Assembly (NCBI GenBank): GCA_019636235.1
Contig: JAHBXW010000019.1
Coordinates: forward strand, 1-64,000
Direction: 5' to 3'
Length of the DNA: 64,000 nt
Source of the DNA: Planctomyces sp.
Lineage (GTDB): Bacteria; Planctomycetota; Planctomycetia; Planctomycetales; Planctomycetaceae
Within the stretch, counting starts at the first letter, position 1; every line of letters begins with the position of its first letter. The notes under the pieces are model-generated. The model saw only the letters and a program-made list of their open reading frames with translations, did not search any database and had not been told where the DNA came from. A program made the position numbers and the translations under genes. This document shows, one piece after another, positions 1 through 25,255 of this stretch.

Positions 1-264
1 ATTAAATTCTCGGGTGACCTGGTGTATCTGGTACTGATCCGGGGCAGCAATCTTGATCGTTCCATTGAAGGCGGGGGGATTGATCTCATCCGGGCTGGTC
101 TGCAACGCCACCGGGTATTGTGGGTGAGAGAGATGAGTGAGGAGGATATCCGCGATACCGGAGAGAACGGTCCGACCATCGACAGCATCGCAATCGCCGA
201 ATTTGAATCGCACTCTGAGTTGAAGAAATGGCTCGATGACGAAGCGTCCTCATTCTCGCTCTAA
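1..264 (+). CDS. 3' end of a hypothetical protein gene, cut by the window edge
   Basis: The reading frame is open from base 1 to a stop at 262-264, so this is probably the C-terminal part of a gene that begins outside the window; a GTG at 22 would be an alternative start. The last 40 residues (…IAIAEFESHSELKKWLDDE…) have the alternating strand-then-helix look of small ferredoxin-fold proteins such as DUF1330 or EthD-type monomers, but that is only a visual impression. The stretch is AT-richer than most of the window, as is the sulfotransferase downstream, which fits accessory DNA. No firm function. Confidence 0.4.
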   Translation: MKFSGDLVYLVLIRGSNLDRSIEGGGIDLIRAGLQRHRVLWVREMSEEDIRDTGENGPTIDSIAIAEFESHSELKKWLDDEASSFSL

Positions 265-1576: not shown

Positions 1577-1900
1577 TGCCCCCTTACGCGAAACGCGAAT
1601 AGCGTTTTTCGGCGGAAGGGGGGCGAAAGCCCAAAGGTACGGGGGGAGTGCAGTCAAGGACGACCGGCGCGGAGGGGCACCCGGTCTGCACAAGCGAGGC
1701 TTTGCGAGCGCGGAAGATTGGGGAGGAAGCCGCAAAGGTCGCCAGGCCCGATCCTTGACGGCACGGGGGATTCACCCCCTGTTTTGCGCACGAGAGGGCG
1801 AGAGGGGGCGATAGCCGTCCCTCGAAGAGGACCGGAGCGAAGCGAAGCCCGGAAGCACTCGACCGCCCGGATGGCGGACGTGCCCAACTAATGCAGTCCG
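1577..1900 (+). ncRNA. Candidate structured non-coding RNA, class unknown
   Basis: No convincing protein is encoded here, but complementary segments are dense. An outer stem pairs CCCCCTT (about 1580-1586) with AAGGGGG (from about 1616) and contains an inner AAACGC/GCGTTT hairpin. GGGCGAAAGCCC at 1621-1632 is a GNRA-tetraloop hairpin. GTGCA (1649-1653) pairs with TGCAC (about 1687-1691) and encloses GACCGG/CCGGTC. TCAAGGA in that internal loop is complementary to TCCTTGA near 1752-1758, which would make a pseudoknot. CTTTGCG pairs with CGCAAAG, GGGGG with CCCCC around 1764-1778, GAGGG with CCCTC, and CCGCC with GGCGG inside GCAC/GTGC near 1855-1882. The GNRA loops form only in plus-strand RNA. 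I cannot assign a family; HEARO/omega-type RNA or an intron remnant are possibilities, but no IscB, TnpB or maturase gene is nearby. Confidence 0.4.
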
Positions 1901-2333: not shown

Positions 2334-3092
2334 CTACGAGTCGCCTGTCGCGTTGGGCTTTCTCTTTGCCTTGGTGTCCAGTTCTTCGCCCTCGCTAAGC
2401 TTGCGTAGGGTTTCTCTCAGTCGCTTCTCGGATTCGGCCGCTTTCTTGATTTTGTCGAACGGGTCGTTTTCGGAATCGGCTTGTTTCGTTTTGCGCTTCC
2501 CTGGCTTCTTGCGCATCATTCTGCGTATGTACGCTTTCTTCTCTTCGATGATCTCTAAGTCGATGGCGTGAGGCAGTGTAAGTGGCATCTCGAAGTCTTC
2601 ATCTAAAACGGTGAGCGAAATGAACGCAAGCTCTTCCAGATGACCGTTAAATGCGGCTACGACAAGAGAACGCGCGTCTTCTTCGCACATCTTGAGGGTG
2701 AGTTTGATGCTTCCCTCCTCCAAGCCAGAAACGCTGAGCGTTCCTATCGCGTGCATAAGCGTCGAGACTTGCGAGAGCAAGTTTGACACACCTTCGGATG
2801 TTTCTGCCATCTCGATAGGCAGTCCGAGCACAACCTGAATTGTGATTTGGCGACTAGCGGCGGTGGCTGCGGACGGCGTAGAACCTTCGAGAAGGTCGTC
2901 GGGTTCAACGTTCAAAACTTCAGCGATTAGCGCCAGCGTATCGCGCCGATAGGAGTTTCCGTTCAGAACGTTGGTGAGTGTCTTGGGTGTAATCCCAGCC
3001 AATTTCGCCAGTCTGGCTTGGCTCAATGCTTTGGCTTCGAGGAGTTGCTCTACCGCTTCTCGACTTACTTTGCGCATCGTGGTGCGGCTCAT
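2334..3092 (-). CDS. XRE-family transcriptional regulator with a C-terminal domain of unknown function
   Basis: A 252-residue protein. Residues 12-62 form a Cro/CI-type helix-turn-helix (LSQARLAKLAGITPKTLTNV followed by an LNGN turn). Residues 83-170 form an alpha/beta region holding the 35-residue motif shared with the small downstream protein. Residues 180-252 are highly charged and probably helical or disordered. It is transcribed divergently from the ParB-like gene across a 186-base gap rich in inverted repeats, the usual place for an element's own repressor. I infer that it controls the integrative element. Base composition is more AT-rich than the transfer genes to the right, so it may have a separate origin. 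Confidence 0.85.
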   Translation of the reverse strand: MSRTTMRKVSREAVEQLLEAKALSQARLAKLAGITPKTLTNVLNGNSYRRDTLALIAEVLNVEPDDLLEGSTPSAATAASRQITIQVVLGLPIEMAETSEGVSNLLSQVSTLMHAIGTLSVSGLEEGSIKLTLKMCEEDARSLVVAAFNGHLEELAFISLTVLDEDFEMPLTLPHAIDLEIIEEKKAYIRRMMRKKPGKRKTKQADSENDPFDKIKKAAESEKRLRETLRKLSEGEELDTKAKRKPNATGDS

Positions 3093-7917: not shown

Positions 7918-9389
7918 ATGAGACAGTTTGCCGCACTGGCACGGGTTTCCAGCCGGGAACAGGAACGCGAGGGCTTCAGCCTGGAGGTGCAGGAGGAAGC
8001 CCTCAGGCGTTATGCGGCGCAGGCCGGCGGCGAGATCGTCAAGTTCTTCAGGATCGCCGAGACGGCCAGCAAGGGCGAAGAGCGCAAGACGTTCCGCGAA
8101 CTGATCGCATACGCCAAGAAGAATGCGGCGTTTCTCGATGGCCTGCTTTTCTACAAGGTGGACCGTGCATCCCGGAACCTGTTCGATTATGTCGAACTGG
8201 AACGGTTGGAGTCGGAATACAACCTGCCGTTCATCTCCGTGTCGCAGCCGACCGAGAACACGCCCGCCGGCCGCATGATGCGCCGCACGCTCGCCAACAT
8301 GGCGAGCTTCTACACCGAGCAACAATCGGTTGATGTCCGCGAGGGGCTTTCCCGCCGTGTCCGCGAAGGCTGGTTCATCGGCCTGGCTCCCTACGGCTAC
8401 CGCAATGTCCGCAAGGACGGGCGGGGCATCATCGAGACGGACCCGGAGCAGGCCGCCAACGTCAAGCGTATCTTCCATCTCTACGCCTACGAAAACCTGA
8501 CACTCGATGGCGTCGTCGAGAGAATCAACGCCGAAGGCCGCATCTGGCGGAAGTCGCAGCCGGCGTTCCCGCGAAGCTCCGTCCACAACATCCTGAAGGA
8601 CCGGGCCTATATCGGCGAGATTTCGCACAAGGGCGAATGGTATCCCGGCAAGCATGAGCCGCTCATCGACCGGGCGACCTGGAACCGGGTGCAGGCTCTC
8701 TTGGGCGGTCACGTGTACCAGTCGCAATCGCACACCTACGCCGGGCAACTCATCCAGTGCGGCCACTGCGGCCATCCCATCACTGGCGAGACCGTGACGA
8801 AGAAGACGAAGAACGGCGAGCGCTACTACACCTACTACCGCTGCACCTATTACAACCGCAAGGGGCATCCCCGCATCCGCGTGCGTGAAGCCGATCTCGA
8901 AACGCAGGTGCTGGCCATCTTCGACAAGATGAAGGTCGAGAACGAAGAGGTGCGGGACTGGTTCCGCCTCGTGCTCGCCTCGCAGACGCGGGACGCCCAG
9001 GCGGAGTCGCTGTCGCAGCGGGCCGAGCTACAGCGGCAGGAGACGCTGCTCGTCCAGCAGCAGGACCGGCTGCTCAACATGCGGCTGTCGGAGGACATCG
9101 ACCAGGAGACATTCGCCCGCAAGCACACGGAATTGCGAGACCGGCTGGCCTCGATCAAGCTGCAACTGGACGTAGTGGACCGCTGTCACGACGAAACGGC
9201 CGAGTTGGCATCGAAAGTTTTTGAACTTTCGCAAACTCTTCGGAATCAATGGCTTACCGCCGATTACGCCGCGAAGCGCCGCATCCTCGAAATCGTGTTT
9301 TTGAACTGCGTGCTCGACGACGTAACTCTTGTCCCCGCAATGAGAAAGCCCTTCGACGTTCTCGCCGAAGGGCTCATTTCTGAAAAAAG

Positions 9390-9408
<19 letters not shown>
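7918..9408 (+). CDS. Large serine recombinase (site-specific integrase)
   Basis: A 496-residue protein. The N-terminal resolvase domain has the catalytic serine at 11 in ARVSSREQ and the conserved arginines of KVDRASRN at 80-87. A Recombinase domain follows (PYGYRNVRKDGRG near 158-170), then a zinc-ribbon pair (CGHCGH near 281 and a Cys/His cluster near 310-320) and a coiled coil at about 350-430, all usual for phage- and ICE-type integrases. It integrates and excises the element. The last seven codons and the TGA stop (9406-9408) lie inside tRNA-Pro, so the attachment site joins the element to the tRNA 3' end. This marks the right end of the element at about 9389; the left end is not obvious. 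Confidence 0.95.
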
Positions 9409-9464
<56 letters not shown>

Positions 9465-19452: not shown

Positions 19453-19565
19453 GCCGTTGCGGGAGGCTGCCCGCTCGATCATTCTGCAGAGACCGGCGAC
19501 TGGCCCGTGCGGTGCTTGCAGACCCGCCGTGACAGGCCTCCGGGTTCTGGCGGAGCAGTCGCCGC

Positions 19566-21665
19566 ATGTCGCAGAGCAGTCACCATCGTCGACGCCCCGT
19601 CGGTCTGCCGTCGGTCCAGAAAAACGGCGGCAAAGGGAAGCGTCGGCGACGCGGATCCTCGCATAGCCTGCCGACCGCCCGGATCGTCGGCGTGGCGCTG
19701 GCGGTCGCCCTGGCGGTCGCGGCGTTCATCGCCATTGCAGAGTTTCGCGCGCGACGCCGCGCGGCCGAACCAGAGTTCCAGGCGCGGCCGCTCGCCTGGG
19801 AAGTGCCCGCCGACGTCGATTCTTACGTGTCGACCGTCCGGCACCCGTCGAAGCCTGACAGCAGCGGCGGCGATTCCCGCGCCCCCGCCAGCTCGCAGCC
19901 CGCGTCCGTGTCCCCGGCGACGGATGCGCCCCCCGCCCCCGAACTGGCATCCGAGCCGCCGCCGGAAGAGATCGAAGAGACCGTCGCCGCGGACGCTCCG
20001 CCAACGTCAGCGCCCGCCGAGACGCCCGTCGTCAGCCGCCGCATCCCGAAGACCGGCGGCCGCCGCTGGACTGTTCAGCCCGATCCGCCGCGCGGCCGCT
20101 GGAACAGCGGGCACGGTCCGATGCCGCAGACCCTGTTCACCGGCATCTCGACCCCCGGCGTCCAGTTCGTGCGCTCCGAAGAGCCGATCGCCCTGCTCGA
20201 GATTCCTGTCGGCGGCGGGGATTACGAGTACGCCGCCTGGGATCTGATCACCGGCAAAGCCCGGGGCAATAAGGTGCATCGGACCGGCGCGGCCCATGCG
20301 CCGACGATCAGCCCGGACGGCACGCTGCTCGCCGTCCGCCGGATTCCGAAGCAGCGTCCCGACCCCGCGGACTCCGAATCGCCCGTCATTGAACTCTGGT
20401 CGCTGGATTCGGGCCGTTTGACGCAGGTCATCCAGGCCGGCGAGCCGGGAGCAACGGTTGCGTACGCGGAGCTGCCCACGGCCGACCGGCTGATCACGTT
20501 CACTTATGCGGGCACGGACCGGCAGCGCGCCAAACATCTGCGGATCTGGGATGCCCGCACCGGCCGACTCATCCGGGAGATCGCCTGGAACTCGCAGTTC
20601 GACGCCACGCGCTGCACGCTCAGCCCGGGGGGACGGTTCCTCGCGAACATCGACGGATTCCGCCCGGCGCCGCTGCAGTTTTATGACCTCGAATCGGGCG
20701 AGCTGGCCGGGGAGGCGGCGCTGCCGCCGCAGAACGCCCGCGGCGAGCACTTCGAATGGGTGGACCTCGACTTCTCGCCGGACGGCCGGGAGTTCGCCGC
20801 GTTGCGCACCTCGCAGGCGGCGACGGAACTGACGGTGTTCGATCTCGCGACCGGCGATGCGGTTCGGTCCCATCGCCTGCCTGGTCAGGTCTTCGCCTCC
20901 GTGCCGTCCAGCGGCGCGTACCAGGGCCGCATGCTGGAATGGCTGCCGGACGGCTCGGGCTGGCTGCTGGTGGGCGGTCTGATTCTCGACGACGTCAGCG
21001 GCCAGGCGGTGTGGATGCTGGACCCGCGATCCAATACGTCGCCGCGACGGATTCTGGGGGAGGAGGTCTGCTGGGTGTCGAAGGAGAAGGCCGGCCCGGC
21101 CGAGTCGCGGTACACGTTTCAGGTTCAATCCATTCCGTGGGCCGAGATTCGGTCGGCGCTCGGGCGGACGGACGAAGCCGGCGCGATGTTTGGCCCGGGG
21201 GCGTTCGTCAGCGTTCAGCTGCACGTCGCCACGGCGGACCCGGAGGATGGCTCCGCGACGGAGACAGCCCTCGCCGAGGCGCTTTCCGCGCGGCTGTCGG
21301 ACGCCGGATTTCGAATCTCGGAAGAGGAACCGCTGGTGTTCGAGGTCCGCTATCAGGAGTCCGAGGGGCTGATGCTGCAGCCGCGTCCGCAGTCGCCGGC
21401 GCCGGTCGGACAAGCGGGGGGCCGAATGATCAAGACGACGCAGATCGAGCTGGAGACGACCTGGCGCTCGGCGGACGGTCGCACAATCTACTGGAAACGG
21501 ACTCAGGAATTTCAGCCGACGCATCTGTCGCCGGACGCTGGTCCGGGAACGGCCCGCGCTGAGGCGCTCCAGTTGGCGCTGCGCCGGATCGCGGCATTGC
21601 CTATTCCGAGATTTCTGGGCGTCGCCGGCGGCGGCACGTTGCCCCTCCAGGCCGCCCTGCCCTGA
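19566..21665 (+). CDS. Membrane-anchored beta-propeller-like protein
   Basis: A 699-residue protein. A basic N-terminus is followed by one membrane span (residues about 39-59), then a Pro/Ala-rich linker to about 165. Repeating blade-like segments such as SPDGTLLAVRR, LRIWDARTGRLIRE and FDLATGDAV suggest a WD40/YVTN-type propeller to about 500. The last 160 residues form a separate alpha/beta domain (ALAEALSARLSDAGFRI). The ATG at 19566 lies just before a run of basic residues. It is a likely periplasmic scaffold or sensor; the partner is unknown. Confidence 0.78.
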   Translation: MSQSSHHRRRPVGLPSVQKNGGKGKRRRRGSSHSLPTARIVGVALAVALAVAAFIAIAEFRARRRAAEPEFQARPLAWEVPADVDSYVSTVRHPSKPDSSGGDSRAPASSQPASVSPATDAPPAPELASEPPPEEIEETVAADAPPTSAPAETPVVSRRIPKTGGRRWTVQPDPPRGRWNSGHGPMPQTLFTGISTPGVQFVRSEEPIALLEIPVGGGDYEYAAWDLITGKARGNKVHRTGAAHAPTISPDGTLLAVRRIPKQRPDPADSESPVIELWSLDSGRLTQVIQAGEPGATVAYAELPTADRLITFTYAGTDRQRAKHLRIWDARTGRLIREIAWNSQFDATRCTLSPGGRFLANIDGFRPAPLQFYDLESGELAGEAALPPQNARGEHFEWVDLDFSPDGREFAALRTSQAATELTVFDLATGDAVRSHRLPGQVFASVPSSGAYQGRMLEWLPDGSGWLLVGGLILDDVSGQAVWMLDPRSNTSPRRILGEEVCWVSKEKAGPAESRYTFQVQSIPWAEIRSALGRTDEAGAMFGPGAFVSVQLHVATADPEDGSATETALAEALSARLSDAGFRISEEEPLVFEVRYQESEGLMLQPRPQSPAPVGQAGGRMIKTTQIELETTWRSADGRTIYWKRTQEFQPTHLSPDAGPGTARAEALQLALRRIAALPIPRFLGVAGGGTLPLQAALP

Positions 21666-23347: not shown

Positions 23348-25255
23348 TCAGTCCCCCGCCCGATTGGCCAGCGCCTCGAGCTCCGGAATGTCGAACTCCT
23401 CGAGCAGCCCGAACGTGAACAGCTCGGGGCCGTTCGGAATCGCCAGATTCTCTGAGATGATCTGTTTGAGGGACGTCAGCCCGCCGTCGCACGTGACCCG
23501 GACGATTGCGCCTTCCCCCGCGGCCGCCGCGCACAGCGCCCCCAGCGACGTCCGACGACCGACGGCGATCGCCTCCAGCGGCAGTCCCGTCTGCGCGGCC
23601 CACCAGTCCGCTGCCGCGTTGGTCTGCGCGGACAGCACCCCCAGTGGGCGCGAACCCACCGCCGACACCAGCAGCCCGAACAGGAAGTCCCGCGACGGAA
23701 TCTTCGATTCGCCCGTGTTGTAGGGATCGATCGCCAGCACCCGCACGCCCTCCCGCAGCAGCCCCTCGATGCGCGCCGCCTGGCTGGCCCGCCCGTCGTC
23801 CGCCAGCAACATGACGCAGCGCGTCGCCCCGTCAGGCACGAACTCCGTCGCCGGAATCGTGAACCGGTCCGAGAGATTCAGCGCCCAGCGGTTCACGTCC
23901 ACGCCGCCGGAATGGCTCGATTCCAGCAGCTCCGCGGACGTCGCTGCGAGCGGCTCGTACCGCAGAATTTCGCGCAGCCGCGACCGGCGTTTCTCCGGCG
24001 CCGCATCGCCGGCGGGCCGGGGCAGGTCTTCAGCCAGCGCCCTCGCCAACGACTGGAACCCCAGGTTCATCGAAGGCAGCGGAACCTGCAGAACGTCGGC
24101 GCTGTACACCTCGGACTGGCAGGGGATTTCGCGGGGATCGAACGGCTGGCCGTCGTAGAAGTGCCGGCCGATCATCCGGTACAGCGCCTCGCGATTGTCC
24201 TGATCGAAATTGTGCGTGCCGGGCAGGTGGTTGATGTGGGCCGTCAGCCGATCCGAGGCGCCATACAGCGCGAACGCCGGACGGGCGGCCTCCAGCAGCG
24301 GCGGCAGCGCGTGGCCCGCCGCGAAGCAGCAGTTGTCGCGGTCGTTGAACGTGAGCAGCGTGGGCCGCGGGGCGCGCATCGCCGTCAGCAGTGCGTAGTC
24401 GGCCGTCGTCGCCAGATCCGTCGGCGTCTGCTCGGAATCCCCCAGGTCCGAGTGAAACAGCGCCCGCGTCCGGAAACTCGAATAGCCCGCCACCGGATCG
24501 CACAGCCTGACCCGCTCGTCCAGCGAGCTGATGAAGATCGTCTGCCAGCCCCCGCCGGACAGCCCCGCCACGGCGACCCGCTCGGGATCCGCATGCTCGT
24601 GATCCAGCAGCAGGTCCAGGCCTCGGCTCATCGCCAGGTAGAAGCAGGCGATCCCGCTCGTCCCGCACAGATCGAGCTGGTTCATCGTGTAATGGTTGAA
24701 CTCGGGGCCGTTGAGCTGGCCCATGCCGAACCATTCCAGGTTCAGGGCCAGCATGCCGCGTTTTGCCTGGTTGATGCAGCGAATCTGCTTGTAGTCGGCG
24801 GCCTTGCCCGCGCTGTCGTGCCCGTTGACGTTCATCACGACCGGCACGCGGCCCTCCAGGTTCCGCGGCTCATACAGCAGGGCCGGCGCCCACATGCCCG
24901 GAACGATCTCGTACCGCAGCTTGCGGATCACGTACTCGGACTGCTCGATCACGTCCAGCCATTCGACGTGCGTCGGGGACTCGCGCCAGCCCCGGGCGGC
25001 CCCGCGAAAGACCACGCGTTCGAACGTCGCGCGCCGCGCCTCCGTCGCGATCCGCTCCCACTCCTCGACCGACTCCGCCCGCGGCAGCGGCGGCATCTTC
25101 GACAGCACGTACTGCTCGATCTGCGACTGGACCACCGCCGTTGGCGTCCCCCGCGCGGACAACGCCGCGGAGATCTCCGGCGCCTCGATCGCCGCGACCG
25201 GATTCGCCGTCAGCCACAGGCCCAGGGCCGCCGCTCCGACAAGCAGTCCTCGCAT
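23348..25255 (-). CDS. Secreted alpha/beta hydrolase, acetyl-xylan-esterase-like
   Basis: A 635-residue exported protein. The ATG at 25255 follows AGGGGGGAG and precedes a signal peptide (GLLVGAAALGLWLTANPVAA); the TTG at 25279 is less likely. The first hydrolase domain has VMNVNGHD as oxyanion strand, GLSGGGW as nucleophile elbow near residues 250-256 and GTHNFDQDNR with the probable catalytic histidine. The C-terminal third looks like a second alpha/beta fold without a clear GxSxG. Such large esterases are common in planctomycetes that degrade sulfated or acetylated polysaccharides. The substrate is not known. Confidence 0.82.
   Translation of the reverse strand: MRGLLVGAAALGLWLTANPVAAIEAPEISAALSARGTPTAVVQSQIEQYVLSKMPPLPRAESVEEWERIATEARRATFERVVFRGAARGWRESPTHVEWLDVIEQSEYVIRKLRYEIVPGMWAPALLYEPRNLEGRVPVVMNVNGHDSAGKAADYKQIRCINQAKRGMLALNLEWFGMGQLNGPEFNHYTMNQLDLCGTSGIACFYLAMSRGLDLLLDHEHADPERVAVAGLSGGGWQTIFISSLDERVRLCDPVAGYSSFRTRALFHSDLGDSEQTPTDLATTADYALLTAMRAPRPTLLTFNDRDNCCFAAGHALPPLLEAARPAFALYGASDRLTAHINHLPGTHNFDQDNREALYRMIGRHFYDGQPFDPREIPCQSEVYSADVLQVPLPSMNLGFQSLARALAEDLPRPAGDAAPEKRRSRLREILRYEPLAATSAELLESSHSGGVDVNRWALNLSDRFTIPATEFVPDGATRCVMLLADDGRASQAARIEGLLREGVRVLAIDPYNTGESKIPSRDFLFGLLVSAVGSRPLGVLSAQTNAAADWWAAQTGLPLEAIAVGRRTSLGALCAAAAGEGAIVRVTCDGGLTSLKQIISENLAIPNGPELFTFGLLEEFDIPELEALANRAGD

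Follow-up and report, generated by a model that had tools for sequence, protein, structure and literature searches.

A conserved folded element adjoining ardC on mobile DNA of Planctomycetes and its possible action as single-stranded DNA

In the DNA analysed here (Planctomyces sp., assembly GCA_019636235.1, contig JAHBXW010000019.1; the whole stretch of 64,000 nucleotides is called the window), a comparison of homologous sequences confirms positions 1577-1886 as a real conserved folded element, which planctomycete plasmids and mobile islands carry and which in most of its copies immediately adjoins a divergent ardC gene. We propose, with about even confidence, that it is a control element of MOBF plasmids and islands, similar to Frpo/ssi, which would work as single-stranded DNA and represent a new family tied to ardC. 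A further suggestion, that Planctomycetes possess an undescribed class of folded single-stranded control elements with a loop grammar specific to DNA (C-GNA-G and C-GNNA-G, free of the purine rule of RNA) providing for immediate antirestriction expression at plasmid entry, falls in our judgement slightly short of even.

The preliminary description of this region, made from the letters alone, presented it as a large structured RNA with GNRA loops and a possible pseudoknot. The sequence check found the GGGC-GAAA-GCCC stem at 1621-1632, TCAAGGA at 1654-1660 and TCCTTGA at 1752-1758, and the other stems that it named were also found where it had placed them. Folding of the single sequence gave a modest signal (z of -2.2 for the plus and -2.0 for the minus strand); as this is weak when taken alone, the reality of the element was settled by the comparison of copies (Table 1).

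Table 1. Parts of the element in the window copy, and the gene fragment at the contig start
Feature	Position in window	Strand	Basis or remark
Whole structured element, window copy	1577..1886	+	homology to about 59 copies; blastn span 1570-1888
5' hairpin P1	1577..1624	+	fold; comparison of copies
Hairpin GGGC-GAAA-GCCC	1621..1632	+	other copies GGAC-GAA-GTCC, GGTC-GCAA-GACC
Conserved core, modelled as R1	1633..1781	+	135 bits in window copy
Helix A 5' arm, GTGC-A-GTCAAGGA	1648..1660	+	covariation helix 1
Helix A 3' arm, TCCTTGAC-G-GCAC	1752..1764	+	covariation helix 1
Helix C CCGGTCT:AGATTGG, conserved internal loop CTGCAC / GGAAG, hairpin tip	1681..1721	+	covariation helices 6-8
Hairpin GGGGG-ATTCA-CCCCC	1765..1779	+	covariation helix 9
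3' domain, covarying long-range pairs	1788..1883	+	conserved in 44 copies
CCTC-GAA-GAGG hairpin within 3' domain	1820-1830	+	
C-terminal part of gene following TrwC-type relaxase gene in related loci	1..264	+	

For the core, covariation was evaluated on 61 distinct sequences and 35 pairs, with 94% of the cells being paired, and its score was 0.322 against 0.025-0.062 in controls with the partners slid. Changes on both sides occur in 23 of the 35 pairs, and the number of cells with such two-sided changes (233, compared to 61 in shuffles) was not reached in any of 500 shuffles, so that the large structured element proposed at first, and the covariation that was to be sought among its homologues, are both borne out. 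The long-range pairing of TCAAGGA with TCCTTGA is kept in almost every sequence, its last pair varying between AU, CG and GC; it is nested and represents the closing helix of the core, not the pseudoknot suggested earlier. The core is compact and multi-helix, with conserved unpaired purines, and in the 3' domain further long-range pairs covary among 44 copies. In P1, which adjoins the ardC start in the ardC-linked copies, the sequence is swapped wholesale between copies and the hairpin is retained; the hairpin at 1621-1632 overlaps the 3' arm of P1, which implies a partial competition between both.

The plus strand is identified as the folded one by its G-U pairs, which outnumber A-C by 125 to 18, in agreement with the direction initially proposed. 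The difference in minimal folding energy between plus and minus strands was as large in shuffled sequences, with RNA or DNA parameters, and is uninformative. Covarying pairs that admit G-U on the sense strand, a general mark of structured RNAs, are found here. A protein-coding reading was rejected, since open reading frames across the element have no Pfam match, as the preliminary description had supposed, and indels between copies are not multiples of three.

To collect the copies, the core was turned into a covariance model (R1), and genome contigs were scanned with a pattern; both together gave about 59 of them, most with strong scores and nearly all from Planctomycetes. A second copy with 74% identity is present in the same genome, and 17 of 99 related genomes gave a DNA match. 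Because its first filter is strict, the scan of the phylum with R1 under-counts, and prevalence was not taken from it. PALBO2, a closed plasmid of Paludisphaera borealis, bears one copy, and a Defluviicoccus vanus plasmid gave a short match, correctly placed upstream of ardC. Searches of Rfam and of plasmid and phage DNA collections (at the nucleotide level) returned no match to the element, the former in line with the initial impression that no known RNA family explains it. As separate observations, PALBO2 is typed by MOB-suite as non-mobilizable, yet a MobF relaxase gene is annotated on it, and strong copies were seen in metagenome-assembled genomes labelled Porticoccaceae and Bacteroidales, where they are possibly misbinned planctomycete contigs or a result of transfer.

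Several copies per genome, as well as truncated and solo copies, may be taken for a mobile hairpin repeat, REP- or MITE-like, hitch-hiking on plasmids; we find this very improbable, because compensatory changes across deep divergence and the consistent position at ardC imply a function.

According to our analysis ardC is divergent and immediately adjoining in 41 of the 59 copies: it is encoded on the opposite strand with its start 60-165 nt away from the core, and ardC thus has the folding strand as its template. Viewed from the side of the gene, the element is found upstream of 17 of 21 close ardC genes (at least 60% identity to the reference ardC), its diverged versions at 3 of 4 intermediate ones, and none at 35 distant ones. 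The ArdcN and zincin domains of ArdC, and a TrwC relaxase, were confirmed with Pfam. Most copies stand immediately before ardC, which would also suit a structured 5' UTR leader of the ardC messenger, regulating it as minus-strand RNA. This reading is already disfavoured and in our opinion has hardly any probability, since the G-U pairs kept on the plus strand are A-C mismatches on the minus one (125 vs 18), and the GNA-type loops described below belong to the plus strand, not to the minus.

In all 15 loci where a relaxase was found, its TrwC-type gene lies on the strand of the element, and MOBF plasmids carrying the element also have RepA and ParA. Together with the persistence of solo copies without ardC, it may indicate a single-strand initiation or replication site, used in second-strand priming, or a part of oriT, to which the adjacency of ardC is secondary. 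We regard this explanation as rather improbable, as the element is linked to ardC, at 60-165 nt, and not to the relaxase gene, from which its distance varies by kilobases and on either side. Conserved motifs upstream of the relaxase gene were inspected as oriT candidates. The relaxase gene and ardC point in opposite directions in planctomycete loci, whereas the leading genes or ardC of F, R388 and Skermanella pSR-4 are co-directional with transfer or relaxase genes. With an oriT polarity like that of F, transfer would involve the other strand and not the plus strand.

The question of DNA or RNA was approached through hairpin loops, counted in stems of at least 4 bp, with RNase P counted in the same way. 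In these counts, which like the G-U shares given below rest on related sequences and one RNA control family, the plus strand has 55 GNA (50 of them closed by C-G), 36 GNRA, 31 GNYA (29 closed by C-G) and 2 UNCG loops, the minus strand 12, 7, 1 and 2, shuffles about 12, 7, 5 and 2, and RNase P of 30 related genomes 56 GNRA, 1 GNYA, 0 GNA and 17 UNCG. Purine-rich hairpin loops are therefore present, as was claimed, but GNA and GNYA are as common as GNRA, and in tetraloops of the element the third position is a pyrimidine about as often as a purine, unlike in RNase P. SSU rRNA as a loop control had too few hairpins, and the F region upstream of ssb too few of them to judge. Of the core pairs 6.4% are G-U, or 3.6% once two wobble columns are left out, and in the 3' domain the figure is 1.7%; the share in RNase P, 12.8%, is about twice that of the core. 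The pattern typical of RNA, with GNRA prevailing over GNYA, UNCG loops and an RNA-like G-U share, is not the one displayed by the element.

Hairpin loops of C(GNA)G and C(GNNA)G types are unusually stable in DNA, which was reportedly established in the work of Hirao, Yoshizawa, Nakano and Bevilacqua. The N4 promoters, which are of the single-strand type, are DNA hairpins whose loop has a sheared G:A pair (PMC4496689). The loop types and the low G-U share point to single-stranded DNA rather than RNA, and these two tests suggest that the structure, which as such stands, is a fold of DNA and that the initial label of RNA is probably wrong.

The main rival of our proposal is nevertheless a structured noncoding RNA of the plus strand, acting in trans or in cis and transcribed divergently from ardC, to which we give a minor yet appreciable probability. 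The plus-strand fold, the compact multi-helix core with its conserved unpaired purines and some GAAA loops are compatible with it, and so is helix C, where a tandem G-U is conserved: one position has G-U as its most frequent pair, and at the adjoining position G-U shares the first rank, so that these wobble columns suit RNA better than DNA. Its terminator-like hairpin at 1765-1779 can be counted in the same direction, but the T-run after it is not conserved between copies, no sigma-70 promoter or -10 hexamer was found by a promoter scan of the element, and the frequency of GNA and GNYA loops, the lack of UNCG enrichment and a G-U share half of that in RNase P speak against this reading.

Returning to a single-stranded DNA switch as the preferred reading, we can suggest the following order of events. 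In conjugation the element would become single-stranded, and its plus strand, presumably the transferred one, would fold into a series of stable hairpins with C(GNA)G and C(GNNA)G loops; the folded DNA would then most likely recruit RNA polymerase, or else a primase, so that ArdC may be made, or the second strand primed, once the strand enters the recipient. ArdC of R388 binds single-stranded DNA, and the recipient requires it (PMC7213743). Frpo folds as single-stranded DNA and drives genes of the leading region (PMC11541004), and ArdA of ColIb-P9 is expressed from a Frpo-like promoter (PMC8744291). A TTGAC is present in helix A; it is suggestive of a -35 box, but we did not build on it, because no -10 accompanies it and the comparable stem of R388 has TTGAC on its other arm. 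Against the preferred reading speak the negative promoter scan, the wobble columns of helix C and the fact that solo copies stay structured when ardC is missing; its main difficulty is that ardC and the relaxase gene run in opposite directions in the planctomycete loci.

The likeness to Frpo/ssi of F and ColIb-P9, which is one of description and not of sequence alignment, consists in a length of about 330 nt, a location upstream of establishment or antirestriction genes, and a structure on the template strand of the gene downstream, all of which the element possesses. The folding of Frpo as single-stranded DNA is established, whereas for the element it is our proposal, and the element differs by having no recognisable -10, by its ardC being opposite to the relaxase gene, and by its planctomycete hosts. 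It is mainly on enterobacterial plasmids that promoters of the Frpo type are known, and the proposal, if true, would add Planctomycetes to the hosts in which antirestriction genes are under single-strand control, through a covarying family of dozens of copies.

In R388 a 656-bp repeat with 95% identity lies at 23485-24216, upstream of ardC, and at 19565-20210, upstream of another gene. On the ardC template strand, 10 hairpins with a C(GNA)G or C(GNNA)G loop have a stem of at least 5 bp, and 6 of them fall within the repeat, where C(GAA)G and C(GATA)G hairpins are abundant on this strand. A comparison of the repeat with the element gave no significant sequence similarity, and in the literature consulted we found no description of the repeat's function. 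As both are located upstream of ardC and share loop types on its template strand, the simplest reading is that both are single-strand elements which serve one and the same gene and are either convergent or very diverged.

The STAXI motif is likewise a structured motif near antirestriction genes and ssb, for which a role of single-stranded DNA has been considered (PMC2864571), but it is built of repeated pseudoknots with UUCG loops, and the element has no match in Rfam. HEARO and omega RNAs resemble it in being element-borne and a few hundred nt long; they are however neighboured by IscB or TnpB. The earlier idea of an element-borne RNA holds as far as the mobile element is concerned, the usual neighbour being ardC on MOBF plasmids and not TnpB or IscB, and its variants, an omega/HEARO RNA or an intron remnant, were abandoned, as the Rfam search gave no match to HEARO, to group I or II introns or to any other RNA. 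If our proposal is true, a test from sequence alone, by loop types and G-U share, could separate folded DNA from RNA and would serve for 'orphan structured RNAs' on mobile elements, the same question having been raised and left open for STAXI; the same loop grammar could help in searching plasmids at large for such elements.

The window copy itself, which sits in a mobile island, is a relic or solo copy without ardC, with a sulfotransferase gene at the place where ardC would be expected. The fragment at the contig start (Table 1) belongs to a gene that follows the relaxase gene in related loci, and the relaxase itself would lie beyond that start; ParB-like and VirD4-like genes are also held by the island. 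On its other side a large serine recombinase gene (7918-9408) abuts a tRNA gene (9390-9464) of the other strand, this junction being the likely right end of an integrated mobile island; a search for an att repeat within the window found none. Two proteins encoded on the minus strand, at 2003-2257 and 2334-3092, match Pfam TRADD-like_N, the latter below the curated cut-off and with an HTH domain, and may be paralogous regulators.

Two further conserved elements were observed in the same loci. The second one, distinct from the first and intergenic, stands in the same orientation upstream of minus-strand genes (gene family C3/C11), at -2414..-1990 relative to the element in locus L122, 3283..3832 in L120 and 4312..4693 in L110, and also in L115 and L117; it has no match in Rfam, shows apparent compensatory changes, such as AAGC..GCTT to AACC..GGTT, and a start motif similar to its own occurs upstream of ardC on Rhizobium etli p42a. 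The third, short element, GGCCTATGCANNGCATAGGGAAGACGCCTGTC, is located upstream of minus-strand genes such as parA (C10/C4/C25), at -2534..-1986 in L111, from -565 in L112, from -3689 in L122, from -4030 in L125 and from -7895 in L116.
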